24,806 bases of DNA, taken from the IMG/VR virus record IMGVR_UViG_3300022200_009154, positions 1 to 24,806 of that record; one strand, 5' to 3'. The position numbers were made by a program, and so were the translations under genes. Shown here piece after piece: positions 1 through 21,639 of this stretch. The notes under the pieces are model-generated. The model did no database searches. It worked only from the letters and a program-made list of their open reading frames with translations, and was not told the DNA's origin. The DNA comes from a virus. Position 1 is the first letter of the stretch. Each line of letters begins with the position of its first letter.

Positions 1-3000
1 ACTTCACTTTGGTCAGAGATAAGAGATACACCCATGAAAGACAAACATTATTGGTTTCTCTCTTACATGATGGTTCATATGGTTACTTAAATCAATATGG
101 TAGAGTAGCGTCTTATCCTGATTTGGGATCTTTTGATTTTACCATCACAGGAACAACTGGACAATTGTTGTTCTACCCCAATAAGTTCACCATTAATGAT
201 TATAATGTTGCACATGTTTCTCACGATTTAAGAGAGGCGGCAGGAATAGGTAGTACGACCCTTGGAGATGTTGTACAGATTGATTCTGCACAAACAACAT
301 TCTCATCTGGAGCAACTGCAGCATCTTCCATTGTTGGAATCGCTTCAACATATCGTTCATCAAAGATCATAGTTGAGATTGGTGGGGTAGATGGATCTTA
401 TTATGAATTCGATGAAATCAATATGATCCACAACGGATCTGAAATTGATATTATTGATTATGGTCAATTGACTGATGAAATTTTAACACCTACAGGAACA
501 CCTGGTCTTGGAACCTATATTCCAAGATATGATGGTTCTGAAATAAGAATTGATTTCAAACCAGATTCAGCTCTTGGTGTTGGTGTAACCATCAATGTCT
601 TGGCAGTTTCAATTGCTAGTAGCATATCTGGAGCAACAGGAGTTGGAACTCAACAACTTAATAACGGAAGACTTAGTTCCGCATATGCCACCATTGCAGC
701 TTCTGGATCCCCTGGAGTTACCACAATAACACAATACCCAGATGATCATTTGGCAGCATATTATATTGTAAGCATAGAGGACAAAACAAACCAAAGATAT
801 CAAATGTCAGAGGTGATTGTCATTTCTGCCGGATCTACAGCATCTATCACAGAATATGGTATTTTAGAAACCGATGCATCTCTTGGAACGATTGATGCAA
901 ACGTAGTTACTGGAGGCACAGATCTCACATTTACTCCAATCGCTGATATTGATGTTGATGTTAGAGTATTCCAACAGGCGTTGTGTTTTGATAGAGGAAT
1001 TACTGATACAGAGATAAGTTTTACTAACGCGCTTATTTCTAGTGGTTTCGGTGACTATGAAGGAACTGAAAGATCTGTTAAGAGAGAATTCAATCTTACC
1101 CACAACTCTAGAAATATTTTCCAAAGAGACTTTGACGGAAGTAATACTTCTATTGCAAATACGTCAACAAATACAATTGAATTGCCAGAGCACTTCTTTG
1201 TAACTGGAGAAAAACTTCTTTATACTTATTCTGGATCAGACTCTTCAACTGCTAATGCTGTTGGAATAGCAACAACCTCAATTTCTGGTATTGGAAATAC
1301 TGACAAACTTCCAACAACAGTTTATGCAGTTAAAGTTAGTGAGAAAACTATTAAGTTGGCAGCTTCAGCTGAAGATGCATTAAAAGTAAATCCAGTTGTA
1401 CTTGATCTTACTAGTGTTGGTATTGGAACATCTCACGTCTTTACTGCAACAAATCAAAATGCAAAAGCATTGATTTCTATTGACAATTACATCCAATCAC
1501 CCATTGTTGCTTCTGCAGTAACAACAACAATTTCGGAGGCTGCATCTACCGCTGACAATAGACTCAAATTTGCTGGAATAACTTCATTCTTCGGTGGAGA
1601 CTTGATTAAGGTTAATGATGAAATAATGAGAATTGATGGTGTTGGAATAGGAAGCACAAATGTTATTTTGGTCAAGAGACCTTGGATGGGAACAGTAGTC
1701 GCAAATCATGCTGCTAACTCTGTTGTTACTAAGATTGAAGGTAATTACAATATTGTTAATAATACACTTCACTTTGTTGAAGCACCTCAAGGTCCAACCC
1801 CAATTGGATCAATAACTAATCGACCAGATCAAAGAGATTATACTGGTTTGACGACATATTCTACTTTCCATGGTAGAACATTCATGAGATCTGGAATTGT
1901 TGGAACAACAACAGATTCATATTCCGCAAACTACGTTTTTGATGATATCTCTGATGGATTTACTGGAATAGCAAAGACCTTCACCTTAACATCCAACAAA
2001 CAAAATGTTACTGGATTCTCTACAGATAATGCAATTGTGCTCATAAACGGAATATTCCAAGGACCACAAGGAACTCAGGCAGAAACTCAAGATTATACTT
2101 TGACAGAAAGTTCTGGTATAACCAGTGTTAGATTTACAGGAACAGCCTCTTCTGTAGGATATGATATTAATGCATCAAACGTTCCTGTTGGTGGAGTATT
2201 AGTTTCTGTTGCATCAACTGAAGGATTTGGATTGCAACCACTTGTTGCTGCTGGAGGAACAGCAGTTGTTTCTGCTGCTGGAACAATTTCATCAATTAGC
2301 ATTGGAAACAGTGGATCTGGATATAGAATTGGAATACAGACTGTAGTTAATGTAGGAGTTCAGACCTCAAGCACTGGAACAGCAAATATAGAATTCATCG
2401 GAACTGCATCTGTAAGTAACGGTAGAATCGTATCTGTTGCCATTACAAATCCAGGGGTTGGATATACAAGATCAAATCCACCAACTGTTGTCATTGATTC
2501 ACCATTATCATATTCAAATATTTCTCTGATTTATAGTTCTTCCTCTGTATCTGGAGTTGGAACTCAGGCAAAAGTTGATATTGTTGTTGGACAAGGATCA
2601 AGTGTAATTGATTTTACTATAAGAAACACTGGATATGGATATGGTCAAGGTGAAATACTAACCATCCAAACTGGTGGAAATATTGGTATTCCAACTGATA
2701 CAACAAAAACTTTCAAAGAATTCCAAATAACTGTTGATAAAGTTTATAATGACAATTTCTCTGGATGGTCAGTTGGTCAACTTCAGGTTTTAGATTCATT
2801 TGAATCCTTATTTGATGGAACTTCCAAATCATTCCCACTTAAGTTAAACGGTGGATTTATTACAATTCGCGCAGCAAACGGATCCAACATTGATATAAAA
2901 TCAACTCTTCTCATCTTCATCAATGATATCCTTCAGGTTCCTGGACAGGCATATACCTTTGAAGGTGGAAGTTCTATTGAATTCACCGAATCACCTAAAA

Positions 3001-4319
3001 AAGGAGACACTGCAAGAATCTTGTTCTACAAGGGTAGTGGAGATACTGATGTTATCTTTAAAGATATTATTGAAACAGTTAAAGTTGGTGACGAATTAAC
3101 ATTACAAAATGATCCTGGACTTGGACAAGGTATTGGACTTTTACAAGATACTAGAGTTATTACTGGAATCAATACATCGGATTCCGTGACAACAAATCCA
3201 TATTCTGGACCAGGGATAACTACAGATGATACTTTACTGAGACCACTTAAGTGGTGCAGACAAACAAAGGATAAGTTTATTAATGGTATTAGAGTTGGTA
3301 AGGATAGAGTTAAGTATGAACCTCAAATCTATCCAGCATCATTGCTTATTTCTTCTACAGGAATTGGTTCAACATCAATTTATGTAGATAGCATCAGACC
3401 ATTCTTTGATGCTAGAAATGAAAATAGCATTCTCACTTTCCAAGATAAAGTGAAGTTAACTTCTCAAGACTCTTTGGTTGGTGCATCTGCAACTGCAACT
3501 GTATCTGCTGCAGGAACTATAACATCCATTACAATCACTGATGGTGGATTTGGTTATTCTTCTGCACCTATTGTTACTATTGAAACTCCAGTCGGAATTG
3601 CTACAACAGAAAGAGCGTCTGCAACAGCGACGATATCATCTGGAGTTGTTGATGCAATCTCTGTGACTGGACCTGGAACTGGATACACATCAACGAATCC
3701 ACCTGCAGTTCTGATTGAACCACCAACTCTGAAGCAAGAGACAATCGACGTTTCTTCCTTCTCAGGAGATTCTGGAACTATTGTTGGATTTGGAACAACT
3801 TCATCTCCATCAGAGCAAATGACCTTTGATTTGTTTATTCCTCTTAATTCATATCTAAGAAACACTGTTATTGCTGGAACTGCACTCACTATCAGTGGTA
3901 TTTCAACTGGTGATTACTTCGTTGTTTATAACTCCAATGTTGGATCATCTACGACTTCAACAACATCTTTTGATAATGGTAGTCAAGTCATTGGAGTTGG
4001 AACACAATTTGTTGATAATGTATATCAAGTTTCTTCGTTCTCGGTGGTGAGTGTTGCTAATACATCTATTGGTCTTTCGACTGTTGGCACAGCAACAACA
4101 GAAGTGATTAGAGTTAGTGCTGCATCATCTACACCAAAATCATTCTCTGGTATAACAACAGCACCTTTCCTTGGTGAATATAGTTGGGGTAAGATTAACC
4201 TGTCCGCAGGAGTTTCTACAACTTTCAGCAATCATACTAGTAGAGGTGTTGGAGGACTTTCAACTTCAACCCTCGTGAATAGAAGTGCTTTCCTCAAGTT
4301 CAAAGACTATACTGCATAA
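1..4319 (+). CDS. Giant virion structural protein, 5'-partial (position of T4 gp7)
   Basis: The frame is open to the left edge, so the start lies upstream; the TTG at 9 is only the first possible start inside the window. At least 1436 residues remain. The protein is rich in Gly, Ser, Thr, Ile and Val with almost no Cys, as expected of an extended beta-rich virion protein. The N-terminal visible part contains GQLLFYPNKFTINDYNV, which resembles a motif I remember from large cyanophage virion proteins. Inserted modules are visible at 1506-1736, 2247-2678 and 3480-3725. The short turn-like motif G(I/V)G(S/T)T recurs many times. It lies directly upstream of gp8, the place of baseplate wedge gp7 in T4 (1032 residues), so a baseplate role is likely. 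I see no direct similarity to T4 gp7, so this rests on position. Virion structural protein is fairly sure; the exact role is not. Confidence 0.8.
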   Translation, partial: FTLVRDKRYTHERQTLLVSLLHDGSYGYLNQYGRVASYPDLGSFDFTITGTTGQLLFYPNKFTINDYNVAHVSHDLREAAGIGSTTLGDVVQIDSAQTTFSSGATAASSIVGIASTYRSSKIIVEIGGVDGSYYEFDEINMIHNGSEIDIIDYGQLTDEILTPTGTPGLGTYIPRYDGSEIRIDFKPDSALGVGVTINVLAVSIASSISGATGVGTQQLNNGRLSSAYATIAASGSPGVTTITQYPDDHLAAYYIVSIEDKTNQRYQMSEVIVISAGSTASITEYGILETDASLGTIDANVVTGGTDLTFTPIADIDVDVRVFQQALCFDRGITDTEISFTNALISSGFGDYEGTERSVKREFNLTHNSRNIFQRDFDGSNTSIANTSTNTIELPEHFFVTGEKLLYTYSGSDSSTANAVGIATTSISGIGNTDKLPTTVYAVKVSEKTIKLAASAEDALKVNPVVLDLTSVGIGTSHVFTATNQNAKALISIDNYIQSPIVASAVTTTISEAASTADNRLKFAGITSFFGGDLIKVNDEIMRIDGVGIGSTNVILVKRPWMGTVVANHAANSVVTKIEGNYNIVNNTLHFVEAPQGPTPIGSITNRPDQRDYTGLTTYSTFHGRTFMRSGIVGTTTDSYSANYVFDDISDGFTGIAKTFTLTSNKQNVTGFSTDNAIVLINGIFQGPQGTQAETQDYTLTESSGITSVRFTGTASSVGYDINASNVPVGGVLVSVASTEGFGLQPLVAAGGTAVVSAAGTISSISIGNSGSGYRIGIQTVVNVGVQTSSTGTANIEFIGTASVSNGRIVSVAITNPGVGYTRSNPPTVVIDSPLSYSNISLIYSSSSVSGVGTQAKVDIVVGQGSSVIDFTIRNTGYGYGQGEILTIQTGGNIGIPTDTTKTFKEFQITVDKVYNDNFSGWSVGQLQVLDSFESLFDGTSKSFPLKLNGGFITIRAANGSNIDIKSTLLIFINDILQVPGQAYTFEGGSSIEFTESPKKGDTARILFYKGSGDTDVIFKDIIETVKVGDELTLQNDPGLGQGIGLLQDTRVITGINTSDSVTTNPYSGPGITTDDTLLRPLKWCRQTKDKFINGIRVGKDRVKYEPQIYPASLLISSTGIGSTSIYVDSIRPFFDARNENSILTFQDKVKLTSQDSLVGASATATVSAAGTITSITITDGGFGYSSAPIVTIETPVGIATTERASATATISSGVVDAISVTGPGTGYTSTNPPAVLIEPPTLKQETIDVSSFSGDSGTIVGFGTTSSPSEQMTFDLFIPLNSYLRNTVIAGTALTISGISTGDYFVVYNSNVGSSTTSTTSFDNGSQVIGVGTQFVDNVYQVSSFSVVSVANTSIGLSTVGTATTEVIRVSAASSTPKSFSGITTAPFLGEYSWGKINLSAGVSTTFSNHTSRGVGGLSTSTLVNRSAFLKFKDYTA
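1506..1736 (+). repeat. 'DE-RG-H' beta module in the left giant protein
   Basis: About 77 residues with the pattern: hydrophobic strand, 'KVNDEIMRIDGV', a strand ending in 'VKRPWMGT', then 'ANHAANSVV'. The same order of motifs (nDE.m.v / L.V.RG..gT / aa.H..g..V) occurs at 12132-12389 and 17488-17685, in two other proteins. The similarity is at protein level only and was judged by eye. Confidence 0.6.
2247..2678 (+). repeat. 'GxGY' modules, three anchors, left giant protein
   Basis: Three tandem divergent units have the anchors GSGYR, GVGYT and GYGYG. The first two are preceded by a strand of the type 'ISSISIGNS' or 'IVSVAITNP', and the second is followed by 'NPPTVVID'. The first unit contains GTGGATCTGGATATA at 2311-2325, a 15-base string identical to one in gp14 at 15957-15971. 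Confidence 0.7.
3480..3725 (+). repeat. 'GxGY' modules, two anchors, left giant protein
   Basis: Two further units, with anchors 'GGFGYSSAPIVTIE' and 'GTGYTSTNPPAVLIE'. Each is preceded by a strand of the type 'GTITSITIT' or 'GVVDAISVT'. They are closer to the gp14 units than to the set at 2247-2678 in the same protein. Confidence 0.7.
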
Positions 4320-4321
4320 CC

Positions 4322-4330
4322 TAATAAATA
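4322..4330 (+). promoter_or_regulatory. Candidate T4-like late promoter for gp8
   Basis: TAATAAATA lies in the 30-base gap before gp8, about 20 bases before the ATG. AATAAATA differs at one position from the T4 late promoter core TATAAATA (established for T4 and reported as similar in cyanophages). The same string also occurs by chance inside genes in this AT-rich window, so its placement in the short gap is the main support. Confidence 0.5.
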
Positions 4331-4349
4331 GATAAAAAAAGTCTGTAAA

Positions 4350-5915
4350 ATGGCAGCTATTATAACTGATCAACTTCGAATTGTTAATGCAAAGAATTTT
4401 GTTGCGGGAGTTGCATCCACTAGTAATTCTTACTATTCGTTTGTAGGACTTCCAAATCCTACAGACTATGATAGTGATTGGAACACAACTCCCCCCTCAC
4501 CAAAAGATAATTTTGATGAGGAGAACAATTATTGGGACACAATGATTGCCCTGAAGAAGATCACTAAAAATGATGTTCGACAGGTTGTTAAAAGAACAAC
4601 CTGGACATCGGGGATCACTTATGATATGTATCGCCATGATATAAGTGCAACTAATACATCTAAACCATCTAATTCAGTTGATTTATACTCTGCAAATTAC
4701 TATGTAATGAATAGTGATTACAGAGTTTATATTTGTCTCCAAAATGGAACTACTCCAGAAAATCCTTCTGGAAGACCATCCTTAGACGAACCAACATTCA
4801 CTGATTTAGAACCAAGGTCTGCAGGAACAAGCGGCGATGGATATGTCTGGAAATACTTATATACAATCAACCCAAGTGATATTGTAAAATTTGACTCTAC
4901 TGAATATATGCCAGTTCCTCAAGATTGGGAAACTAGCACCTCTACCGCTGCTGTAAGAAATAATGCTTCAACTAGCGGTCAAATAAAAGTTGTAACAATT
5001 TCAAATAGGGGAGTTGGATTAGGAACTGCAAATAGAACATATACCAGAGTTCCAATTAGAGGTGATGGAAGCGGTGCTGAGGCAACAGTTGTAATTAACA
5101 ATGATGCAAAGGTTGATTCAGTAACAATATCTAAAGGAGGGTCTGGATATACCTTTGGAATTGTTGATTTAGCAGGTGGAGGTGTTCCAACTGGATCATC
5201 ATCTCCAGTTTTTGATGTTATTATTCCACCTCAAGGTGGTCATGGAGCAGATATTTACAGAGAACTTGGTGCATATAATGTTCTTTTATATTCCAGAATT
5301 GAAAATGATACGGAAAATCCCGATTTTATAACTGGAAATGAAATTGCAAGGGTAGGGGTTGTGGAAAATCCACAATCAAACTCAAATTCAAATTTGACTC
5401 TTGACAAAGCAAGTGCTGTTTATGCATTAAAATTGACAGGAGTTGGTTATAGTTCAGTTACATTTACCGCTGATACTCAAATAACTCAAACTATTGGAGT
5501 TGGATCTACTGCTTTTGGTAGAGTAGTTTCATATGATAAAAATACTGGAGTTTTGAAATATTGGCAAGATAGATACCATGTTGGATTTAATACTGATGGT
5601 ACAAGAAATACTTCGCCAACTTACGGATTCAAAATGCATAGATTTACCGCAGACATTGGAAGCGGTGGATCATTTAATATTGTAGGCGGAAGTGCTACTT
5701 TAGGCATTCAAACAACATTTGGAAGTTCTTCTAATCCAGGTGTTAGTACCGTAATAAATAGTAGGACATATTATTTGGGACAGTCGTTTGTGAAGGGAGT
5801 TTCCCAACCAGAAGTCAAAAAATATTCTGGAAACATCATATATGTCGACAATAGACCGTCAATCACTAGGTCATCAAACCAAAAAGAAGATATCAAAGTT
5901 ATTTTGCAATTCTAA
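4350..5915 (+). CDS. 8: Baseplate wedge subunit gp8
   Basis: 521 residues; T4 gp8 has 334. Two landmarks match T4 gp8: 'GDGYVWKYLYTINP' at residues 162-175 (T4 has GDGYVWEYLFEIPP), and the C-terminal 'SGNIIYVDNRPSI' at 493-505 followed by an 'EDIKVILQF' end (T4 has GEMIYMENRPPI and ends EINILFTF). gp8 is part of the baseplate wedge with gp6, gp7, gp10, gp11 and gp53. Much of the extra length lies in the middle: residues 211-292 are a Gly-rich 'GxGY' module absent from T4. The ATG at 4350 has no strong Shine-Dalgarno sequence but has a candidate late promoter 20 bases upstream. The next gene starts 6 bases after the stop. Confidence 0.9.
   Translation: MAAIITDQLRIVNAKNFVAGVASTSNSYYSFVGLPNPTDYDSDWNTTPPSPKDNFDEENNYWDTMIALKKITKNDVRQVVKRTTWTSGITYDMYRHDISATNTSKPSNSVDLYSANYYVMNSDYRVYICLQNGTTPENPSGRPSLDEPTFTDLEPRSAGTSGDGYVWKYLYTINPSDIVKFDSTEYMPVPQDWETSTSTAAVRNNASTSGQIKVVTISNRGVGLGTANRTYTRVPIRGDGSGAEATVVINNDAKVDSVTISKGGSGYTFGIVDLAGGGVPTGSSSPVFDVIIPPQGGHGADIYRELGAYNVLLYSRIENDTENPDFITGNEIARVGVVENPQSNSNSNLTLDKASAVYALKLTGVGYSSVTFTADTQITQTIGVGSTAFGRVVSYDKNTGVLKYWQDRYHVGFNTDGTRNTSPTYGFKMHRFTADIGSGGSFNIVGGSATLGIQTTFGSSSNPGVSTVINSRTYYLGQSFVKGVSQPEVKKYSGNIIYVDNRPSITRSSNQKEDIKVILQF
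4980..5225 (+). repeat. 'GxGY' module inside gp8
   Basis: Residues 211-292 of gp8: a first degenerate unit 'VVTISNRGVGLGTANRTYTR' followed by a clear one, 'VDSVTISKGGSGYTFG'. It has the same strand, Gly-rich turn and GxGY order as the modules in gp14 and both giant proteins. It sits between the gp8 core motifs, so it looks like an insertion in a loop. Confidence 0.6.
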
Positions 5916-5921
5916 GGAATT

Positions 5922-8900
5922 ATGTCTCAGGAAACTAATCTCAACGTAGCTCCATATTTTGATGACTATAATGAACCAGTAATTGGTGGGAAAGATAAGG
6001 ACTACTATAAAGTCCTTTTTAAACCAGGTTATCCAGTTCAAGCAAGAGAACTGACAACCCTTCAGTCAATTTTACAGAATCAAGTTGAACAATTTGGCAC
6101 ACATTTCTTTAAGGAAGGTGCTAGGGTAATTCCTGGTCAATTAACTTACCTCAAAGATTTCTTTGCGGTAGAAGTTGAGAGTAATTTTCTGGGGATACCA
6201 GTATCTCTTTATTTGGACCAACTTGTTGGATTACAAATCCGTGGAGAAACTTCTGGAGTTGTAGCAGTAGTCAAAAAGGTTATCACATCAGATGAGTCTG
6301 AAAGAGGAAATATAACCCTTTATGTTGACTACTATAGTTCAAACCAAAATAACTTCTCCAAGAGAGAATTTGATGATGCAGAAAATCTGATTGCAGATTC
6401 GGATATTTCTTTTGGAAATTCTTTCATTGTATCTGGTGAAGGATTTGCTAGAACTATTGACACAAATTCAACTTCTATTGGATCCGCATTTGCTTTATCT
6501 CAAGGAGTTTATTTTTTAAGAGGTTATTTTGTAACCGTCAATGACCAGATTTTACTGTTAGATCAATATACAAATACTCCCAGTTACAGAGTTGGTCTGG
6601 AAGTAGTCGAAGATGTAATTTCAGCAGACATTGACCCATATCTGAATGATAATGCTGGTGGTTTTAATAACTATTCTGCCCCAGGAGCAGATAGATTAAA
6701 AATTACTGCAACTTTAGCAAAGAGAGATTTAGACGATTTTGAAACACCTGGATTTGTAGAATTAGCAAATGTTAAGGATGGTGTTTTAAGAGAATTAAAT
6801 AAAAATACAAATTATAACTTATTAGCAGATGAGTTAGCAAGAAGAACTTTTGATGAGTCTGGAAATTATTATATCAAGTCTTTTACAACAAGTATAAAAG
6901 AAAGTCTTAATGATGGAAAAGGTAATGGTGGTATATATCGCTCAAATCAATTAACTTCATCTGGAGATAGTCCATCAGAAGACATGATGGTCTATAAAGT
7001 TGGTCCAGGAAAGGCATATGTAAGAGGATATGAAGTAGAAAAAATATCCTCAACATTCCTAGATATTCCCAAACCAAGAACAACAAAATTAATTGAAAAT
7101 AAAGCAGTTAATTTTGATTTTGGAACTACTTTTGAACTCAATAGATCATCAGGAGCTCCAAGTATAGGTATCAACACCTCTGCAACTGTAAGTTTAAGAG
7201 ATCAAAGAATCGGAGTAAGTTCTTACGTTGCTGCTGGCAAAGAAATTGGTGTTGCTAGAGTCTATGATTTTGCATTAGAGTCTGGTTCTTATGAGTCAAA
7301 CTCAAATTTGAACAGATGGGATATCTCTTTATTTGATATTCAAACATATGGTGATTTGTCCATCAATGAACCAATTACTCTTTCAGTACCAGCAAGAGTT
7401 AAAGGTGATTCTAGTGGCGCTATTGGATTCTTAAAAAATAGCGTGACTGCTGGAACTGCACTGACAGTGTATCAGATATCTGGTGAGTTTATAAATGGCG
7501 AAAAACTAATTTTTGATAACTCTAATTCGACCAGAGTAAGCACAGGATTCACGAATTATGGTATTTCTGACGTAAAATCCCTTTATGCAAACGTTGGAGC
7601 ATCAAAAACGTTTGCTGCTGATACTTTACAATCAGTTTCTTTCTCAATTGGTGGTGGAAATGCAACAATTTCCCCATTTTCAGCAGGAGTGGCAACAGTA
7701 ACAAGTGCATTAGTAACTTTCCCAGGAATCGTTACCACTGGAAACTTACTGCGTTATACTCTTGGTAATGCAACAGACCCATCTTTTGCAAAAATTGATC
7801 AAGTTTTAACAAATTCTCTGATAATCAGTGGAGTAACGACTGTCACTGGAATTTGTGACGGAACTTTTTCCGTTGGAGTTTCAACAAGCGTAAATGATCT
7901 CAGTTTGCTCGGAACAAAGTTCAGAGGGTCAAAAAATAACGGCGGATTATTTGCAAGATTACCAAAAGTCAACATTGAATCTGTAGATTTAACAAATTCA
8001 AACATTGTTTTGAGAAAAGAATATGATGTAACCATTACATCAAATTCATCCAACACGATTTCAGTTGGAACCAATTTAGTATTTTTACCATTTGACGAAG
8101 AAAGATATATTTTAGTTCGTTCTGATGGAACTCTTGAAACTCTGACGGAAGATAAGTTTGATTTTACCAACGGATCAACGGAACTTACAATTAATGGACT
8201 TGGAAGTAACGATTCTGCAGCAAAATTAGTTGCTACCGTTAGAAAAGACGTTGTAACTTCAAAATCAAAGAGAAAAACCGCAATTTCTTCTTTAATTGTA
8301 GATAAATCAAACTACGACTACTCAGGAATAGGATCAACAACCAGAAATGATGGACTTACTTTTGGTTCATATCCATTCGGAACCAGAGTTCAAGATGAAA
8401 AGATTTCTTTAAACGTTGCGGATGCCATTGAACTGTTAGGAGTATATGAATCATCGGATACATCCAATCCAACACTACCAAATTTGGTTCTTGGATCTTT
8501 GGATGGACCAACATCAAAAACTGATGACTTGATTATTGGGGAAGAACTGATTGGATCTGTTAGTGGTGCTAGAGCAAAATATGCAGAAAAACTCAATAGC
8601 AGTAAAATTGGATTTGTATATTTAAATCAAAATACTTTCCAGTCTGGTGAAATAATTTCATTCCAAAATTCTGGTGTCAATGCAATCGCTGGAACTTTAG
8701 ATCAAGGTAGCAATAATATAACAAGTAGATTCACATTCAATAATGGACAAACTCCAACTCATTATGGATATGGATATATTCTTAGAAAACAAGGAGTAAA
8801 GTCTCCAATAAGAAAATTAAAAGTTGTATTCTCAAAAGGATACTACGAATCTTCTGACACTGGAGACGTAACAACCTCTAATTCATATGCAGACTTTGAT

Positions 8901-11900
8901 TACCAAAAAGATATTCAAGTTTTAGATGGAGTAAGAAACACTGATATAATTGATGTAAGACCAAGAGTTAATGACTTCACAGTTTCTAGTGGGTCAAGAT
9001 CCCCATTTGAATTTGATGGAAGATCTTTCTCTGATGGAAATCATAGTTCAAATCATGTATTTGCGAGTGACGAATCATCAACATTCTCGTTTAATTACTA
9101 TCTGCCAAGAATTGACAGAGTGTATTTAACCAAAGATGGTGTATTCCAAGTAAAAGTTGGAGAACCTTCAGATGATCCAAAACTTCCAACAGAAGTTTCC
9201 GAGTCTTTAAATATCGCTAACATTGCGTTACCTCCATATCTCTATGATGTAAAAGATGCCGAAGTAACTTTTGTAAATTATAAGAGATATCAGATGAGTG
9301 ATATCTTCAGACTTGAAAATAGAATTAAAAATCTTGAGTATTATACATCACTTTCACTTCTTGAGGACAACACCGCTAATTTGTTTGTTGCTGATGCTCA
9401 AGGACAAAATAGATTTAAGTCTGGATTCTTGATTGATAACTTCTCATCTGTAGGAACACAAGACGTTAGTGTTGGTGTCAAGAACAGTCTAGATGTTCAA
9501 AATGGTCAATTGAGACCATCACACTACACAACTCAATTAAATCTTGAGATTGGGTCAGATGCAATCGCTGGACTCGGTACAACTACAAATTCAACTCAAG
9601 ATCGTAATTATCTTAGCAATATTACTGGAAATAACATTAAAAAAACTGGTAATGTTGTAACTCTGGATTACACAGAATCTCTATGGGTTGAACAACCATT
9701 TGCAACCAGAGTAGAAAATGTTACCCCATACTTAGTTAAGAGTTATGAGGGAACTATTGATTTAGAACCATCAGTAGATGTTTGGATTGATGTAAATCGT
9801 CTTGAAGTCAGAGACGTTAGAATGGAAGGATCTTTCACTGGCGTTGCTGAAGCATTAAGAGCAGAAATAGACGACAGGGCAGATGGTTCTAGACTTGGAG
9901 TAAGTCCAATCATTTGGAATTCTTGGGAAACTAATGGTGTAAGACAGAACATCAATCTTTCCCTTGGATTGAATATGAATACTGGTGGTAATACAGTTTC
10001 CGCTAATGTAAGTGGAAATGTAAGTCTTACAACCAATCTTGATCAGAGAAGAACTGGTGTAAGACACACAGTTAGAGAACAACTCGATACAGAATCTCTT
10101 GGAGACAGAATTGTCAGCAGGGACATAATTCAGTTCATGCGTTCGAGGAACATTCAGTTCACTGCTAGACGCATGAAACCAAATACGCAACTTTATGCGT
10201 TCTTTGATAATGTTGATGTTAATGGGTTCTGTTTCCCTAAATTACTTGAAATCACTATGGAATCTGGCACCTTCCAAGTAGGTGAAAGAGTTCGTGGAAC
10301 GATGATAACAGCACAGAATGTTACCGACGTTGATCCAGACACGATTCCAAATATTGATTTTAGAATTGCATCATCAAATCACAAGTATGGACCTTATAAC
10401 AATCCAACTGATGTCTTCACAGAAAATCCATATGATAGAAATAATGTAATTCCAGCGTCTTACTCAGAAACTAGCACTGTTCTGAACATTGATACTTTCA
10501 GTCTATCAAACGAAAGACAACCAGAATACTGGGGTTGGATTTCATCTGGAATGATATTGAGAGGTCAGAGCAGTGGTGCTGTTGCCACAGTCACAAATGT
10601 AAGACTAATTTCAGATAATGTCGGAACATTAATTGGATCATACCTTGTTCCAGATGGAACTGGTGATTATCCATCATTTGAAACTGGAAGATCTGCATTT
10701 AGATTAACTAATAGTTCAATAAACAGTAGAGTCGGTGGTGTCGTAACCACTTCCGCTGAAGAAATTTTCTACTCAGAAGGAAGTATCGACAATACTCAAG
10801 AAGCAACTCTTTCTTTGAGAAATGCTAGAGTAGAACATGAAGAATTTGAACAGAGTAGAACATTAACATCTTCAACTTCAGCATCTGCTAGTGCTAGTGC
10901 ATCTGCAAGAGTTATAACTCAAGTAGTTAGACCAGTTAGAAGAGATCCTCTTGCCCAAACTTTCTATGTTGATGATGAAACTGGAATTTTTGTTACAAGT
11001 CTGAATGTTTATTTCAATACCAAATCATCAACTTTACCAGTATATTGTCAAATCAGAGAAGTTCAGAATGGTCTTCCTTCATCAACAATCTTAGCATTCT
11101 CTGAAGTAGAACTTTCAGCAGATGAGGTTAATACTTCTGATGATGCTACAGTTGCAACCAAATTTACTTTTGATTCTCCAGTTTATCTGAATGGTAATAG
11201 AGAATATGCACTGGTTCTTCTTTCAGATTCTACAGATTACACTGCATGGATCTCAAGAATTGGTGAATCTGATGTAACCTCTATTGCAACTGAAGCGGGA
11301 CAAGTTCTGGTTTCCGCTCAACCAATCCTTGGATCACTCTTTAAGTCACAAAATGCTTCTACTTGGGATGCAAGTCAATATGAAGATTTGAAGTTTGAAT
11401 TATACAGAGCGGATTTCGTTACCAACGGATCTGTACAGTTCTTCAACCCAACCCTTCCAACTGATATTTCCAGATTGAGAAGGGACGCATTTGATATTGA
11501 TTCAAAAACAATTCGTATTGGAATTGGAACCACAGTAAATGATCCAGACTTGTCAAATGGAAATACAATTATCCAATTACAATCTGGTGCAACAGGAAAT
11601 CTTGTTGGAACTGCGGGAACAATCAATACCTTACAAATTACAAACGTCGGTACGGGATACACTCCAAGCAGTGGTGGAACAACTTATTCCAACTTGACTC
11701 TAACAAACGTTGTTGGAACTGGTAGAAATGGAACGGCAGACATTACGATAAGTAATGGAGTCGCTATCGCTGCTACCGTTAATGATGGAGGAACTGGATA
11801 TTCTGTAGGAGATCTTCTTACAATCTCTGCGGTTGGAGTTTCATCTCTTGGCAGAAACTTAAGATTGAGTGTATCTGATATCAGTGGATTAAATGAACTC

Positions 11901-13391: not shown

Positions 13392-13392
13392 A

Positions 13393-13781: not shown

Positions 13782-14167
13782 TGGCATCACACACAATCAA
13801 GTTCGATCCAAGTGCAGGTGTTGCATATGGTGTTAATTTAAAGATTAACGCTGGAGCAACATTTAGCGATTCATTTACTGTTACTAGAACAGATGGGACT
13901 GCTTTTGATTTTACTAGTTGGACTGCCTCATCACAGATGGCAAAAAGTGTGTCTGTTGGATCAACTTCTTATGCAGTAGCAACTTTTAGTGTTGGATTTA
14001 CTAGCACCACTGAGGGCAAATTTATCTCTTCCATAAGTGCTGCTCAAACAAGAAATTTAGTAGAAGGAAGATATGTGTATGAAATTCTTGTTAGTTCTGG
14101 AACGACTGTTTATAGACTTGCGGAAGGAAATGTTCTGGTGATCCCTGGCATTTCTTCAGCACCATAA
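13781..14167 (+). CDS. Small beta-sandwich virion protein, 128 residues
   Basis: Starts at an ATG that overlaps the previous stop by one base. The pattern 'INAGATFSDSFTVTRTDGTAFDFTSW', then alternating strands, then 'NLVEGRYVYEILV' and 'LAEGNVLVIPGIS', matches the general layout of small Ig-like or BppU-like phage proteins (G..f......DGtaxDlt.....l..G.Y.Y.v.....g....l..G...v.p). No signal peptide or membrane segment is visible. It sits just before gp13, the region that holds fibritin (wac) in T4, but has no coiled coil and is not wac. A structural role is likely from sequence style and location; the attachment site in the virion is unknown. Confidence 0.7.
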   Translation: MASHTIKFDPSAGVAYGVNLKINAGATFSDSFTVTRTDGTAFDFTSWTASSQMAKSVSVGSTSYAVATFSVGFTSTTEGKFISSISAAQTRNLVEGRYVYEILVSSGTTVYRLAEGNVLVIPGISSAP

Positions 14168-14170
14168 ATA
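14163..14170 (+). promoter_or_regulatory. Candidate T4-like late promoter for the gp13-gp16 block
   Basis: CATAAATA overlaps the stop codon of the previous gene and lies about 20 bases before the gp13 ATG. It differs at one position from the T4 late core TATAAATA. The distance to the start is nearly the same as for the gp8 candidate at 4322-4330, which raises confidence in both. Confidence 0.55.
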
Positions 14171-14190
14171 ATTTGAGAGGTAATAATTAA

Positions 14191-15036: not shown

Positions 15037-15040
15037 TGCC

Positions 15041-16696
15041 ATGCTCAATCCATTTTTTCAGCAAGGGACAAGAGGTGAACAAAATCTTATACAAGATTTA
15101 ATTAATGAACAACTGAAGATTTATGGTGTGGAGGTATATTACATACCAAGACAGTATGTAAATAAAAATACAATTATTAGAGAAGTAATAGAATCGAAAT
15201 TTGAGAATGCATATCCAATTGAGGCATATGTAGATACCTATGATGGATATCAAGGTTTAGGAACCCTGATGTCTAAATTTGGCATCCAAGAAATGGATGA
15301 CTTGGTTCTGATTTTATCCAAAGAGAGATACGAATCATATATAACGCCATTAATAAAAAATTTACCAAACATAGAATTAGCAACCAGACCCAAAGAAGGT
15401 GATTTAATTTACTTTCCTTTGGGGGATAGATTGTTTGAAATTAAATATGTTGAGCATGAAAAACCTTTCTATCAACTTCAGAAAAATTATGTTTATGAAT
15501 TAAGATGTGAATTGTTCCGTGCAGAAGATGAAATTCTCGACACCAGTGTTGAAGAAATTGATGACAATCTTATTGATCGTAGATATATACAATCTTTAAC
15601 TCTTGTAGGAGTTTCCTCTGTTGCAACAGCGATAGCTGGTTTTGTTAGCGGTGCTCTCAGAAGTGTTACAATAACTAATAGAGGTGTTGATTATACTTCA
15701 GCACCTAGAGTAGCAATTTCATCTGCTCCTGCAGGTGGAGTAACCGCAATTGGCATCGCCTCTATGATCGGTGCTTTAACTGATTGTGAAGGATTAACGT
15801 CGGATTCTAAGGTTCAAGCAGTAGAAATCATTAATCCAGGTATAGGATATACAGTTGCTCCAGGAATCGTTTTCATCGGTGGTGGAGGGTCTGGTGCTGC
15901 AGCGACAACGGTTCTTTCTGACAATGGTGCTGTTGGTGTAGTTACAATAACAAGTGGTGGATCTGGATATACTACAGCACCAACGATTACATTCTCAGTT
16001 CCAGGCGGTGCAACTGCTACTGCATCAACCACTGCTGGTGGAGTGGGAACTATTGATGCAATTACTATCACCAATCCTGGTATATACTATACCACAGCAC
16101 CAACTGTCACTATCAGCGGTCCAATTGGTGGAGGAACAACAGCAGAAGCGACTGCAACAATTGGTGCGGCAGGAACAGTTACTACAATTACTCTGACAAA
16201 TGCTGGTGCTGGATATACATCAGATCCAACAGTAACAATCTCCAACCTCATTGGTGAGAAGGATCCAGATGAAGTAATTGTACCAACTGGAGTTGCTTAC
16301 ATTAGTTCTGCAGGAATTGTTACTTCGATCCGAATCACCAATGCAGGTTTGGGTTACAGCAGTGCTCCTACAGTTACTGTAAGTTCTCCACCTGTAGGTT
16401 TAGGAACAACTAGTAAGACATTTGTATTCAATGAGATTGTAACTGGATCTATCAGTGGAACAACTGCTCGTGTTAATGATTGGGATGGAACCACCAATAT
16501 TTTAGAAGTTTATAAAGTTGATGGAACATTCGTTGTTGGAGAAAATATAACTGGATCGGAAAGTGGAGCAGTAAGTCAATTAAGAAGTCTTGACACTGAC
16601 GATTTGGTCGATACTTATGCTGAAAATGATATTATAGAATCTGAAGCAGATGACATTATAGATTTTACCGAAAAGAATCCTTTTGGAATACCCTAA
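15041..16696 (+). CDS. 14: Neck protein gp14 with a large repeat insertion
   Basis: 551 residues, more than twice T4 gp14 (256). The N-terminal core is clear: '[13 protein letters not shown]' at 28-40, '[20 protein letters not shown]' at 119-138 and 'PFYQLQ' at 142-147 correspond to T4 [33 protein letters not shown] and PFYQLG. The C-terminus, '[17 protein letters not shown]', resembles the T4 end with its 'SNPFD'. Between these, residues about 200-450 are six 'GxGY..aP.V.I' repeats, and 464-517 is a 'G..SGA.A' module. Core function is expected to be as in T4: neck assembly with gp13 and tail attachment. The insertion should project from the neck, perhaps as collar decoration (inference). The ATG lies 4 bases after gp13. 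Confidence 0.92.
   Translation: [551 protein letters not shown]
15638..16390 (+). repeat. Six tandem 'GxGY' repeats inserted in gp14
   Basis: Tyr anchors lie at residues 218, 270, 310, 350, 392 and 439 of gp14, so the units are 40 to 52 residues long. The shared pattern is strand 'v..ITN.G.GYt.aP.VtIs', then a Gly/Ala/Thr-rich linker. This is the clearest array of this module in the window. The sequence here is GC-richer than its flanks because of Gly and Ala codons. Confidence 0.85.
16430..16591 (+). repeat. 'G..SGA.A.V' module in gp14
   Basis: Residues 464-517 of gp14: '[18 protein letters not shown]', a strand '[20 protein letters not shown]', then a second 'ESGAVSQL'. It is the clearest copy, showing both halves plus the start of another unit, and lies directly after the GxGY array. 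Confidence 0.65.
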
Positions 16697-16699
16697 ATA
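16692..16699 (+). promoter_or_regulatory. Possible late promoter-like element before gp15
   Basis: CCTAAATA overlaps the gp14 stop codon, about 40 bases before the gp15 ATG. It has two differences from TATAAATA. The 41-base gap is otherwise very AT-rich (several TATAA-like strings near 16721-16737), so another element could serve. Weak. Confidence 0.3.
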
Positions 16700-16737
16700 A
16701 ATTGACGGTCTAATAAAAATCTATAACATAATATAAA

Positions 16738-17751
16738 ATGTTTGACTATCATTACCACGAAATTTTAAGGAAGACCATCATTGCTTTCGGAACCTTGTTT
16801 AATGGATTAACCATTAAACATTCTGATAGTAGCGATGATGTAACTAGCGTTATTAAAGTACCTCTTGCTTATGGACCGTCACAAAAGTTTTTGGCAAGAT
16901 TGCAGCAATCCGCAAATCTGAATAAACCCGTCCAAATGACACTACCGAGAATGTCATTTGAATTTGATGGTTTGAGTTATGATCCAACTAGAAAAGTTAC
17001 TTCAACTCAAACTATAATAACTTCTTCTTCAACGGATAAAACACAAGAAAAGAAAGTGTTTATGCCCGTTCCATACAACATGTCATTTGAATTAAATGTA
17101 ATGTGTAAATTGAACGAAGATGCTCTTCAAATTATAGAACAAATTTTACCAAACTTTCAACCAGCATATACCATGTCGGTCAATTTGGTGAGTGAGATCG
17201 GAGAAAAAAGGGATGTTCCAATCATCTTAGATAGTATCACAATGAATGATGATTATGAAGGTGATTTTTCAACTAGAAGAGCATTAATCTATACTCTAAG
17301 ATTTACAGCAAAAACTTATCTGTTTGGACCAGTTTCTTCTGCATCCAACGATGTTATCAAAAGAGTTTCCATTGGTTATATTGCAGCATCTTCTTCAGGT
17401 CTTGATGCACGTAATGGTGGAAGAGATCTTACATACGTTGTTACTCCAAGAGCACTGAAGAACTATACTGGAACTGTAGTTACAAACTTGAATGGAGACA
17501 TCAGTGCTATTGATACGTCTGTTGTCGTTAATGATGCTAGTAGCATAACAGCAGAAACTTACATTGTTATTGATAATGAAGAATTGTATGTTGAGAGTAA
17601 ATCTGGAAACACCTTGACAGTTACAAGAGGTGCTGATGAGACAACCGCTGCAGCACACGTTTCTGGATCAGATGTGAAGGCAATTACAGACGCCGATGAT
17701 GCCTTGATTGAAGTCGGAGATGACTTTGGATTTAGTGGAAGTTTTGAGTGA
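16738..17751 (+). CDS. 15: Tail completion and sheath stabiliser protein gp15, C-terminally extended
   Basis: 337 residues; T4 gp15 has 272. The N-terminus 'FDYHYHEILRKTIIAFGTLF' followed by 'NGLTIKH' and then 'IKVPLAYGPSQKFLARL' corresponds to the T4 start (MFGYFYNSSFRRYATLMGDL, then FSNIQIKR and a later VPITYASKEHF). gp15 forms a hexameric ring that caps the tail tube and sheath and binds the neck. Residues about 251-316 are a 'DE-RG-H' module (17488-17685) that has no place in T4 gp15 and explains most of the extra length. The ATG at 16738 lacks an obvious Shine-Dalgarno. The stop overlaps or nearly touches the gp16 start. Confidence 0.9.
   Translation: MFDYHYHEILRKTIIAFGTLFNGLTIKHSDSSDDVTSVIKVPLAYGPSQKFLARLQQSANLNKPVQMTLPRMSFEFDGLSYDPTRKVTSTQTIITSSSTDKTQEKKVFMPVPYNMSFELNVMCKLNEDALQIIEQILPNFQPAYTMSVNLVSEIGEKRDVPIILDSITMNDDYEGDFSTRRALIYTLRFTAKTYLFGPVSSASNDVIKRVSIGYIAASSSGLDARNGGRDLTYVVTPRALKNYTGTVVTNLNGDISAIDTSVVVNDASSITAETYIVIDNEELYVESKSGNTLTVTRGADETTAAAHVSGSDVKAITDADDALIEVGDDFGFSGSFE
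17488..17685 (+). repeat. 'DE-RG-H' beta module at the C-terminus of gp15
   Basis: About 66 residues: 'TSVVVNDASSITAETYIVID', 'NEELYVES', 'NTLTVTRGADETTAAAHVSG'. It is the cleanest copy of the module also seen at 1506-1736 and 12132-12389, and is appended after the gp15 core. Confidence 0.7.
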
Positions 17752-17756
17752 GTATT

Positions 17757-18173
17757 ATGACAGATAAATTTGATGATTTGAATGATGCATTCAACGTCAC
17801 TGGAGAAATTGTATCACAAACAAGAGAGACCTCCATCAAAAAGATGGATATGTCCCACGAAGATATTAAAAAGGATTATGAATATACAAGAGGAAACTTA
17901 TACAGTTTAATTGAAAAGGGACAAGAAGCAATTAATGGCATTTTGGAGTTAGCACAAGAAAGCGAAATGCCAAGAGCATATGAAGTTGCTGGTCAATTGA
18001 TTAAAAACGTTGCGGATGCAACAGATAAATTGATGGATCTTCAAAAGAAATTAAAAGAAGTTGAAGAAGAAAAAAAATCTGGACCATCAACCGTCAACAA
18101 TGCATTATTTGTTGGTTCAACTTCAGACTTGGCTAAACTTTTAAAATCTGGACTAAAGGAAGATACTAAATAG
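17757..18173 (+). CDS. 16: Small terminase subunit gp16
   Basis: 138 residues from the ATG at 17757. A GTG at 17748, overlapping the gp15 stop by four bases, would add three residues and cannot be excluded; a GAGTGAG run just before the ATG favours 17757. T4 gp16 has 164 residues. The central 'DYEYTRGNLYSLIEKGQEAI' and following 'SEMPRAYEVAGQLIKNVADA', then 'DKLMDLQKKLKE', match the T4 pattern (DDYGVVRRN......DSPRHMEVFATLM....REILKLHKDM). gp16 oligomerises on viral DNA, is long-helical, and regulates the gp17 packaging motor. In T4 gp17 follows directly; here a fibre-like gene and further genes intervene. Confidence 0.9.
   Translation: MTDKFDDLNDAFNVTGEIVSQTRETSIKKMDMSHEDIKKDYEYTRGNLYSLIEKGQEAINGILELAQESEMPRAYEVAGQLIKNVADATDKLMDLQKKLKEVEEEKKSGPSTVNNALFVGSTSDLAKLLKSGLKEDTK
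18165..18172 (+). promoter_or_regulatory. Possible late promoter-like element before the fibre-like gene
   Basis: ACTAAATA overlaps the gp16 stop codon, about 50 bases before the next ATG. It lies just upstream of a hairpin (18177-18194), which would place the hairpin in the leader of a transcript starting here. It has two mismatches to TATAAATA. Weak. Confidence 0.25.
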
Positions 18174-18176
18174 TTC

Positions 18177-18194
18177 TTGGGAGAGAAATCCCAA
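18177..18194 (+). terminator. Candidate hairpin or terminator after gp16
   Basis: TTGGGA (18177-18182), a six-base loop, then TCCCAA (18189-18194) form a perfect 6-bp stem in the 49-base gap after gp16. It is followed by AGTATTATTT, which is T-rich but interrupted. It could be a weak intrinsic terminator or a leader hairpin for the downstream gene. Confidence 0.45.
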
Positions 18195-18222
18195 AGTATT
18201 ATTTACTCATACCCTTGGTCAA

Positions 18223-21200
18223 ATGGCGAACAATAAGAACAATTTACCATCCATTAATGATTTCGCCGGAAATTATGATGATTTGCCTTCAATTAAAGAG
18301 TATTTGAAGGAATCAACTTCAGAAGAACCTGTAGAAAAGGAAGAGGTTCTTCTTGAGGAAGTTAAAGAAGAAAAAAATACAAATTCTGATGGTGTTTTAG
18401 TAGAAGTTTTACGTCTGATTAGTGACGTAAGGAAGGATATTCCTAAAGTACCAGAAGTAAAATATTATGATGAAGAATTAGAAAAATTAAGTGAAGAAAT
18501 TGTAAGAATTAGGGAAGAGGTAAAAGAAACTCCCGAAGTAAAATATTATGATGTAGAAATAGAAGCAATTTGTGATCAAATTGACTCTGTAAAAGAGTAT
18601 ATTTCAGAATCCGTATCAAAAATACCAGAAATAAGAGATAATGTATCTTCATTGGAAGAAACCCTTTCTTATTTAAAAGATACTGTTTCTAATATTCCAG
18701 AAGTTAGATATTATGAAGAGGAGTTGGAAACTCTTCGTAGTGCTATTAATGAAACAAAAAATTCTATTCCAAATGTTCCCCATTGGGTACAAGAAACTGA
18801 AGATGTTCCCGATTTTTCTTGGTATGTAAATGTTAGAAAAACATTTAATGACATTGGAGAGAATTTTGGTAATGTAAGAGATTCTATTCAATCAATAACT
18901 GATAAATTTGATCTTGAAATTGAAAAAATTCAAGAGGAAAAAGAAGTTTTATCTTTTGAAACAAAGATAGAAAAGCAAGCTCTTGAAGAAAAATTAAATC
19001 AAACCAAAACCGAAATCTGGGAAGAATTTAAATCTACATCATCTAAAATTTGGGAATATCATAAAGAATTTAAAGATGATGATCGCAAATTAAAAAAACA
19101 GATCCTTGGTGAGTACAATTCATTAAAACAATCTGTCAACGAAAAACTTGAAAAAATTAATAATCAAAGTGTAGAAACTGATGAATTATTGTTAGGATAC
19201 TTTAATAACTTAAGGGAAGAAATTTCAAATTTCCCAGAAGTAAAATATTATGACGAAGACATTGATGATGTAAGACAAGAAGTTATATCGGTAAGACAAA
19301 ATGTAGAATCAGTAGAATCTGATATTAGTAATCTCTATAAACTTGTAGATATAATTAAGACTTCCCAAAAGCAATTAAAAGAGGAAGTTCAAATTGTAAA
19401 TGAACCAACAGATAAACCACAAAGTGTTGGGGCAGGAAAAGATCCATTGACACCAATGGATCAAAAGTTTGCTACTCTTGAAGATCTTTCCAAACACTAC
19501 AGTTTGTTCATTAACAGAATTCAGCAGCAAATTTCTACCATTGGTGGCGGTGGTGCTGGATTTATCAAAGATCTTGATGATGTTAGTTTTGACCAAACTG
19601 TTGGTAACAACAAACTTTTAATTTACGACCAAGCTAATTCGAAATGGGTTGGTATTGCTAGTACCGCTCTGGGTGGTGGCAGTGTAGTTGGTGCTGCTGG
19701 AACATGGACTACAGACTCTGTTGGTATTCATACAACAAAGAGTGTTGGTATTGCAACCACATCTGCTAAAGCTGGAATTTCCCTTTACGTTGTAGGTGAT
19801 ACTGAAATCACTGGCAATATTTCTGTTGCAGGAACAATAACTTATAATGATGTAACTAATGTAGATTCAATTGGAATTGTCACAGCAAGAAGTGGTATAA
19901 CCGTTGTTGGTGGAGGAATCACTGTTTCTGGAATTTCTACATTCTATGATCATGTAGATTTCAATAATAATATTTTCCACACTGGTATTGCTACATTTGG
20001 ATCCTCTAATGGTATTGGAACAGTCACTATTGGATTGGGAAGCACTGCTCTCTATGTCGATGGTGATGCAAGAATTATCGGTATTCTGACTGTTGGTAGA
20101 GCGTCTGTTACCATTGACGGTAATAACAATACTATTACTTCTGGTATTGTTACCATTACAAATTCTCAGATTTATCTTGGAGATAATATTACTCTCAGTG
20201 GAAGTGCAACAGGTATTAACTCTGCACCTAACGTTTTATATGTTGCAAAAGATGGTAATGATGAAAACAATGGAACTTCTATTGACAACGCAAAATTAAC
20301 AATTTCTGGAGCAGTAGGAATCGCTACTACTGGAACAGTTATTAAGGTTCTTGCAGGAAACTATGCAGAGAACAATCCAATTGAAGTTCCTGCTTTCGTT
20401 TCTATTGTTGGAGATGATTTAAAGACTGTAACTGTAACACCAAATACAGCGACAAAAGATATTTTCCACGTAAGAAAAGGTTGCTATTTGGCAAACATGA
20501 CATTCACAAACCATACAGCACCTGCTGCTGCAATTGGCTTCCCAACAGCAGAGATAGCAACTAATGTTGGAGGTGGAAAGTGGGAAAGTCCATACATTCA
20601 AAATTGCACCAGTAACACTACAACTGGAACTGGATTAAGAATTGATGGTGCTCAAGCAGAAGGACTTAAATCAATTGTTTGTGATAGTTATACTCAGTAC
20701 AATCAAGGTGGTGTTGGAGTTGCAATTACAAACGAAGGATTTGCACAATTAGTTTCAGTATTTACTATTTGCTGTAACGAAGCGATTACTTGCTATAAGG
20801 GATCAACTTGTGATTTGACAAATAGTAACTCAAGTTTTGGAACTTATGGATTGGTTGCAGACGGTGTAAGTAGTCTTCAATCTACTGGTATCGTTACTTC
20901 ATCTGCAGCTGCAGCGCAAGATAATGTTGTAGTTAATATTGGTGCAGGAACAACAAGACCATATGATGGACAAGTCGTTTATTTTGATCAACTCTATCAA
21001 AGTGTAGAGACAATAACTGTTGGATCTGGTGGAACTGGATATACCTCAACTCCAACTGTAACTATCGATGCACCATCTGGACCAAATGGTGAAACTGCAA
21101 CTGCATTTGCAACACTTGAAGGAGAGAGTGTTTCTGAAATTACTATCATCAGTAGTGGAACTCAATACATAGGTACTCCAAATATTACAATATCTGGACC

Positions 21201-21639
21201 TCAAAGTGGAATTAATACTGCGACAGCAACTGCATCGATGTCACCAATTTATTATACAATAAATAGTTCGACACCAGTTGTGTCTGGAATTACTACATTA
21301 ACTCTTGATGAAAACTTGATCAATACTGTTGGTGTTGGTTCAACTGCATATTTTTATCAGCAAAGTAAGATCGTTGCAAGTTCACATACATTTGAATATG
21401 TTGGATCTGGTAATGATATTACTTCAGCAACTCCAAAGAGAGGTGGTGTCACAGTTCAAGCAAATGAAGTTGTCACATCAAATGGAGGAAAGGTAGTTTA
21501 TACAAGTACAGACCAAGCAGGAAACTTCAGAATCGGTGATGAACTACAAATTAATCAAAACACCGGTACAATTAGTGGAAGAGCTTTCACTAGAAGTTTA
21601 TTCTCAGAAATGACACCCTTTATCTTAGCACTCAGTTAA
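18223..21639 (+). CDS. Long fibre-like virion protein: coiled coil plus beta-helix
   Basis: 1138 residues. Residues about 1-60 are acidic and begin with two related short elements, 'LPSINDF' and 'LPSIKEY'. Residues 60-440 are highly charged and helical with heptad character, punctuated by four copies of PEV(K/R)YY(D/E) at 77, 104, 159 and 338. A Gly-rich hinge at about 440-446 is followed by beta-rich repeats of the 'SVGIATT' and 'GIGTVTIG' style to about 665. Residues 668-890 start 'APNVLYVAKDGNDENNGTS' and continue like a right-handed beta-helix (pectate-lyase-like fold). A 'GxGY' module is at 928-1007. The C-terminus 'TSTDQAGNFRIGDELQIN' to 'MTPFILALS' is one I recall as shared by cyanophage fibre-like proteins. 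The likely role is a trimeric fibre or whisker; receptor binding is possible. No catalytic residues could be identified. Confidence 0.8.
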   Translation: MANNKNNLPSINDFAGNYDDLPSIKEYLKESTSEEPVEKEEVLLEEVKEEKNTNSDGVLVEVLRLISDVRKDIPKVPEVKYYDEELEKLSEEIVRIREEVKETPEVKYYDVEIEAICDQIDSVKEYISESVSKIPEIRDNVSSLEETLSYLKDTVSNIPEVRYYEEELETLRSAINETKNSIPNVPHWVQETEDVPDFSWYVNVRKTFNDIGENFGNVRDSIQSITDKFDLEIEKIQEEKEVLSFETKIEKQALEEKLNQTKTEIWEEFKSTSSKIWEYHKEFKDDDRKLKKQILGEYNSLKQSVNEKLEKINNQSVETDELLLGYFNNLREEISNFPEVKYYDEDIDDVRQEVISVRQNVESVESDISNLYKLVDIIKTSQKQLKEEVQIVNEPTDKPQSVGAGKDPLTPMDQKFATLEDLSKHYSLFINRIQQQISTIGGGGAGFIKDLDDVSFDQTVGNNKLLIYDQANSKWVGIASTALGGGSVVGAAGTWTTDSVGIHTTKSVGIATTSAKAGISLYVVGDTEITGNISVAGTITYNDVTNVDSIGIVTARSGITVVGGGITVSGISTFYDHVDFNNNIFHTGIATFGSSNGIGTVTIGLGSTALYVDGDARIIGILTVGRASVTIDGNNNTITSGIVTITNSQIYLGDNITLSGSATGINSAPNVLYVAKDGNDENNGTSIDNAKLTISGAVGIATTGTVIKVLAGNYAENNPIEVPAFVSIVGDDLKTVTVTPNTATKDIFHVRKGCYLANMTFTNHTAPAAAIGFPTAEIATNVGGGKWESPYIQNCTSNTTTGTGLRIDGAQAEGLKSIVCDSYTQYNQGGVGVAITNEGFAQLVSVFTICCNEAITCYKGSTCDLTNSNSSFGTYGLVADGVSSLQSTGIVTSSAAAAQDNVVVNIGAGTTRPYDGQVVYFDQLYQSVETITVGSGGTGYTSTPTVTIDAPSGPNGETATAFATLEGESVSEITIISSGTQYIGTPNITISGPQSGINTATATASMSPIYYTINSSTPVVSGITTLTLDENLINTVGVGSTAYFYQQSKIVASSHTFEYVGSGNDITSATPKRGGVTVQANEVVTSNGGKVVYTSTDQAGNFRIGDELQINQNTGTISGRAFTRSLFSEMTPFILALS
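18451..19251 (+). repeat. Four PEV(K/R)YY repeats in the coiled-coil stalk
   Basis: The hexapeptide starts at 18451, 18532, 18697 and 19234 (residues 77, 104, 159, 338), each time followed by Asp or Glu residues and a helical segment. The first, second and fourth copies share most bases (cc.gaagtaaaatattatga). Spacings are 27, 55 and 179 residues. Pro at the start of each copy should break the helix, so the stalk is probably jointed. Confidence 0.8.
21004..21243 (+). repeat. 'GxGY' modules in the fibre-like protein
   Basis: Residues 928-1007: a clear unit 'VETITVGSGGTGYTSTPTVT', then a degenerate one, 'VSEITIISSGTQYIGTPNIT', each followed by a Gly/Pro-rich turn and an 'ETATAFATL' or 'NTATATASM' strand. 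It follows the same rules as the gp14 array. Confidence 0.7.

Follow-up and report, generated by a model that had tools for sequence, protein, structure and literature searches.

Five different structural proteins of the window, the 24,806-base stretch of DNA analysed here, carry a GxGY unit of about 40 residues, two copies of which make up one domain. We consider it probable that this pair is an autonomous Ig-like sandwich, an accessory domain that is inserted into loops, faces outward and contacts surfaces, perhaps sugars. At the level of sequence, this reading builds on a homologous module in five genes, fixed slots, numbers that change mostly in steps of two, and two sites in gp14. What could be taken for scattered 'GxGY repeats' becomes a definable, so far unnamed two-unit domain with one solved relative.

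The window is the whole of IMG/VR record IMGVR_UViG_3300022200_009154, a genome fragment that holds the structural module of a marine T4-like phage in the order gp7 end, gp8, giant VrlC/DUF4815 protein, gp13, gp14, gp15, gp16-position gene and tail fibre. The top cultured record, Synechococcus phage S-SM2, has the same gene order and 68.5% DNA identity to the window over the gp13–gp16 stretch. The window gp14 contains the T4-type neck-protein core, and the tail fibre has, in its N-terminal part, four copies of a PEVKYYDEE-type repeat (18451–19285). The units and related features are as follows.

2244–2678, + strand: gp7 (C-terminal part), array with units at 2256–2324 and 2403–2504 and a degenerate third near 2592–2645; same slots in relatives
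3483–3728, + strand: gp7, two-unit domain (units c and d); leave-one-gene-out match and AlphaFold2 model
4947–5159, + strand: gp8, two-unit domain with a degenerate first unit; leave-one-gene-out profile
11601–11834, + strand: giant VrlC/DUF4815 protein, two degenerate units; leave-one-gene-out profile and hhalign
15620–16408, + strand: gp14, six-unit array; gp14 seed and profile searches, alignment, AlphaFold2
15620–15742, 15788–15898 and 15899–16012, + strand: gp14 units s1, s2 and s3
16019–16138, 16145–16264 and 16286–16408, + strand: gp14 units x4, x5 and s4
16013–16285, + strand: the two extra gp14 units (x4, x5); four units in 61 of the 64 full-length gp14 proteins counted
16427–16600, with a strand near 15590–15604, + strand: putative gp14 host β-barrel; AlphaFold2 strands, VIA ranges, motif positions
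21004–21204, + strand: tail fibre, two-unit domain; seed, iterated and leave-one-gene-out profiles
2311–2325 and 15957–15971, + strand: 15-mer common to gp7 and gp14; explained by codon usage

By detection, the first gp7 array has three units, an odd number and an exception to the even rule described below. Long stretches are inserted inside GxGY loops in the gp7 of some phages (L102 and L006), reaching hundreds of residues in L102. The gp8 domain lies within residues 195–487, a stretch that replaces residues 216–300 of T4 gp8. The units of the giant protein have the degenerate form GxGYxxGDxLTV, and the gp14 array sits between segments of the putative host β-barrel.

Homology of the GxGY units

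The original prediction placed a GxGY module in five genes, and the module was found in all of the stretches it listed. A two-unit profile lacking one gene was used to scan that gene, with 200 shuffles of each held-out protein as control; the joint alignment of all rows preceded removal of the held-out gene. Each copy was recovered above its shuffles, whose maxima per held-out protein were 5.2–8.5 bits. In gp7, the scores were 13.1, 27.6 and 33.8 bits at 2244–2678 and 59.9 bits at 3489–3728. They were 34.3 bits for gp8 (4947–5159), 29.5–47.4 bits for gp14 (15623–16456), 46.6 bits for the fibre (21004–21204) and 19.8 bits for the giant protein (11601–11834; E = 4.6e-7, shuffle maximum 8.5).

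A profile from the gp14 units alone, the search that the original prediction had looked to, performed less evenly on the window: it found the gp7, gp8 and fibre units and missed the giant-protein copy, which reached only 8.9 bits in an iterated single-unit profile. With the six-unit gp14 seed, 20+20 shuffled sets and one reversal gave a top score of 6.3 bits, and the gp7, gp8 and fibre matches were higher. By hhalign, the probability was at least 86 in 21 of 28 family pairs (one pair has a unit in common) and 7.2–71.2 in the remaining seven, four of which involve the five-row fibre set; reversed controls reached at most 1.3. We take the five copies to be one homologous two-unit module.

At E ≤ 1, no Pfam family is common to all five proteins. 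PHROG families do recur among these proteins, and the unit stretches alone match them. The units are not covered by any Pfam or NCBIfam model scoring above its cut-off, and the eight window proteins scanned have no match to the Pfam Ig and Big families at E ≤ 1. A FlgD_tudor match over gp7 unit c was rejected as far too weak (16 against a cut-off of 26.9 bits; E = 0.014). In the literature covered, mostly openly readable journal papers, we recognised no account of this GxGY repeat.

The module seems to mislead annotation. HTVC008M gp055 (L177:11436–14486), which occupies the gp7 position, is annotated as 'head closure Hc2', and PHROG 460 (Hc2) matches the gp7, gp8 and fibre pairs of the window; gp055 probably received its name because Hc2 profiles contain GxGY units. 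A second recurring module was seen by eye, a barrel with GExxxGxxSGA motifs in the window gp14 (16427–16600) and in the same HTVC008M protein.

Fold of the unit pair

A search of 177,635 distinct PDB sequences with the two-unit profile gave a sole significant match, residues 442–505 of Dpo31/Dpo36 (E = 6.4e-07; the next at 0.26). The single-unit profile found nothing in the PDB at E ≤ 1, and phmmer with the gp14 unit region found nothing at 0.1. According to the accessible part of the paper describing it, Dpo31/Dpo36 is the tailspike of the marine podovirus Carin-1 (PDB 28lx, 28mg, 8ck1), and its domain D3*, residues 434–536, has an Ig-like fold, protrudes from the β-helix and is soluble when made alone (PMC13317679). 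DALI returned only distant matches for D3* (Ig-like sugar-binding domains, Z 2.9 and 2.8), and the authors speculatively place the activity close to the D3/D3* interface (PMC13317679). That part of the paper mentions neither the units nor T4-like phages (PMC13317679). The original guess of an Ig-like unit fits this solved homologue (PMC13317679).

The gp7 c–d pair was modelled alone (window 3450–3758) with AlphaFold2 from 48 alignment rows and is predicted to form one compact all-β domain (mean pLDDT 89.3, pTM 0.76). Of the features expected of a D3*-type domain, the significant two-unit sequence match is found with Dpo31, and one compact all-β domain from two units in the prediction for the gp7 pair only. 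The full gp14 model was poor (pLDDT 62.3, pTM 0.46), with residues 1–180 nearly all below 50; per unit, the conserved slots had pLDDT of about 78–91 and the extra units 60–77.

In BFVD, 24 predicted viral structures matched the gp7 pair model at E ≤ 0.001, among them a baseplate wedge initiator and a neck protein. Against the PDB, Foldseek gave no match at E ≤ 0.001 for either the gp7 pair or the gp14 model. VIA on the pair model had a best Z of 3.0, with antibody and MHC constant domains at Z 2.0–2.7 in nine of 15 rows, and the D3* chain was absent among the rows listed by the two PDB structure searches. 'Ig-like' is therefore a loose term here, since no PDB match passed E ≤ 0.001 and the best VIA Z was only 3.0. 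The gp14 model was set aside for this purpose: its Foldseek and VIA matches fell on the host barrel rather than the units (best VIA row phage KP1 9f4a_A0, Z 7.5, rmsd 4.1, 83 aligned), and no D3* chain was among the rows listed.

We propose that two GxGY units would fold by themselves into one Ig-like β-sandwich of about 80–100 residues. The sandwich would hang in an exposed loop of its host protein without disturbing the host fold and would face outward to contact sugars or surfaces. Exposure of the domain on the virion of the window phage, and a contact role for it, are what we infer.

Hosts in phages and bacteria

In the complete S-SM2 genome, the profile has 15 matches: gp7 accounts for nine, gp14 for two, gp8 and VrlC for one each, and two lie in other frames. 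S-PM2 has 13, P-SSM2 seven, and HTVC008M and S-TIM5 three each; the T4 and P-SSP7 genomes have no match. Genome contigs searched with the S-RIM2 pair gave at least 56 loci in many phyla, with the qualifications that a two-unit query is biased towards runs of at least two units and that some contigs, being metagenome bins, may contain phage DNA. In one of the 56 ORFs (L234) no unit was seen. Bacterial and phage-like host proteins include DUF3383 proteins, a lambda-like tail tube, a DUF2589 protein, an autotransporter-repeat protein and xanthine dehydrogenase, together with a gp8-like protein below the Pfam cut-off and a tail sheath from Nostoc that carries six units. Plasmids searched with gp14 units yielded nothing. 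One ORF (L189, 2824–5607) encodes a xanthine-dehydrogenase-like enzyme with two GxGY pairs.

Thirty of the 56 ORFs were scanned and included six SusD proteins, three multicopper oxidases and two DUF3383 proteins. The pairs fall within the Pfam match in the tail-tube protein L244 and the SusD proteins L223, L232 and L240 (in L223, units at 450–513 within a SusD match of 330–656). In the tail-sheath, DUF3383, multicopper-oxidase and xanthine-dehydrogenase proteins they border matched segments or lie between them. In the bacterial loci, none of the Pfam and NCBIfam models whose position could be read falls on the units themselves, one scan being without positions for most members.

Inner runs in the bacterial and archaeal loci had an even number of units in 62 of 65 cases at one setting. 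Over six settings, 58–65 of 63–68 runs were even and 3–5 odd at each; these counts exclude runs lying 50 residues or less from an ORF end, and the same proteins served to retrain the profile. With the gap set to 30 residues, the gp14 runs break up and no more than 15 of 19 are even. We tentatively entertain, as a possibility that still falls short of an even chance, that the GxGY pair is a prokaryote-wide guest domain, repeatedly spliced into exposed loops of unrelated proteins and exchanged horizontally between phages and bacteria as a generic surface-contact module. Its hosts would be phage neck (two sites), baseplate, sheath, tube and spike proteins, SusD, multicopper oxidase and xanthine dehydrogenase.

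Slots, counts and alternative readings

The gp14 counts cover 64 full-length proteins in the loci fetched, which were the best 80 of more matches, with 35 partial gp14 left aside. Four units were found in 61 of the 64, six in the window and in L007, a relative identical to it, and in L041 eight at one threshold and ten in the other count. A further set of 17 proteins comprised 15 hand-chosen cultured phages, the window and L041. The cultured phages had no units (two phages), two (seven) or four (six), and the window and L041 had six and ten; all 17 counts are even, though not independent given the shared ancestry of most phages. Two more degenerate units were seen by eye in ACG-2014f.

The units occupy two sites in gp14. 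At site 1, between the VGE and AEVKSW barrel segments, a pair is present in six two-unit phages (S-RIM2, ACG-2014d, S-CAM8, S-RIM12, S-H9-2 and S-RIM14), and nothing lies between these segments in the two phages with zero units, S-SSM4 and S-CAM1. Site 2, before the VGE/FNE segment, is used in the window, L041, P-SSM2, S-SM2, ACG-2014f, Bellamy, S-SRM01 and S-B43, and by eye the S-T4 array is there too. Because the two barrel sites are different and are used in different phages, gp14 seems to have acquired the domain on at least two occasions, and the two sites fit the guest-domain reading. Occurring with zero, one, two, three or five domains and at either of two sites, gp14 offers natural test material for the roles of inserted domains. 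In S-SRM01, an HNH endonuclease gene (L185:2750–3277) lies between gp14 and gp15.

The two extra units of the window gp14 lie between slots 3 and 4, and their gain in the window's lineage is real. At the same site, L041 gp14 (L041:3013–5583; 857 aa, about ten units) exceeds its relatives in length by about 390 residues, so that the slot 3/4 site accepts new units. A tblastn search of phages with the L041 insert found nothing.

Alignments place the units of gp14, gp7, gp8 and the giant protein in equal register across relatives; fibre units occur among relatives only in L040, L057 and L062, besides the identical L008. For 494 of the 497 scorable units (gp14 s1–s4, gp7 a–d and gp8), the nearest neighbour is the same slot of another locus. 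Identical rows were taken out, pairs more than 90% identical skipped and L007/L008 omitted; one locus was treated as one phage, yet two contigs have two loci each (L011/L094 and L044/L093). Same-slot neighbours were found for seven of eight fibre units, neither of the two extra gp14 units and 12 of the 94 units in the giant protein's two slots, which have too few profile columns to score (94 of 601 units); overall the count is 513 of 601. A second comparison kept near-identical relatives, set the giant's units aside and covered those units for which every comparison existed, which excludes the two extra ones of gp14. In it, the top same-slot match from a different locus scored higher than all remaining units of a unit's own locus in 484 of 484 cases, and the median same-slot score, a stricter measure, did so in 474 of 484. 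Units change at about the same rate as their surroundings: with up to 40 rows per gene, mean identity is 0.76 for the gp8 units and 0.76 for its N-terminal core, 0.56 for the giant's units against 0.49–0.53 around them, and 0.60–0.66 for the gp14 units against 0.79 for the core and 0.55 for the barrel.

Such conservation fits a structural role equally, and an assembly role is the main rival to the contact-domain reading. In it, the domains would interlock, packing on neighbouring neck, baseplate and fibre subunits with each slot tuned to its neighbour. Every slot does retain its own sequence across phages, and in gp8, gp7 and the giant protein the unit stretches are conserved to about the same degree as the remaining sequence. 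Yet gp14 dispenses with units altogether in two phages, carries two to ten elsewhere and holds them at alternative sites, some phages tolerate large insertions in the gp7 GxGY loops, and the solved homologue protrudes (PMC13317679). We regard such an interlock as rather unlikely.

The original prediction also suggested that the module moves between the genes of one virion by recombination, perhaps in part recently, and that grouping units by gene or by genome would tell. The gp14, gp7 and gp8 units group by gene and slot, and the same-slot results above speak against recent movement. The identical 15-base string proposed as a trace of it is present in gp7 and gp14, but codon usage explains the match, which we accordingly read as no sign of recent exchange: the string encodes GSGY in common codons, occurs in 26 of 161 loci, and under synonymous resampling a cross-gene match of at least 15 bases arose in 31% of 2000 trials (P = 0.31). 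The extra gp14 units, like the long L041 protein, leave some room for such movement. Taken singly, they are nearest to gp7 unit c, and within the window the insert scores 63.9 bits against gp7 and 60.8 against gp14; in other phages, however, BLAST places it slightly closer to gp14 (slots 3–4 of L061, 88.6 bits) than to gp7 (80.1), so that the evidence points both ways as to whether gp14 or gp7 was the source. Recent shuffling within a virion is on balance very improbable; over longer times, the domain did spread among unrelated proteins.

Convergence of Gly- and Thr-rich β repeats with no common descent, for which low-complexity composition and the weak single-unit scores of the giant units and one gp8 unit might speak, we regard as the least credible reading, in view of the leave-one-out and reversed-profile controls and the prevalence of even numbers.

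The outward-facing accessory domain that we favour can be set beside known systems. T4 gp14 and gp8 are homologous to the cores of the window gp14 and gp8, and the T4 genome, unlike the window, is without any match to the two-unit profile. Fraser and colleagues reportedly described Ig-like domains in phage virion proteins, T4 Hoc being an example of such a protein. These are likewise accessory β-sandwiches scattered over unrelated virion proteins; the GxGY pair differs in lacking a Pfam Ig match, in its internal two-fold repeat with GxGY and in a structural likeness that is distant. Dpo31 D3* differs as a single pair on the spike of an unrelated podovirus. Like the window pairs, it is a two-unit sequence homologue set into a host fold; D3* protrudes from that fold (PMC13317679).
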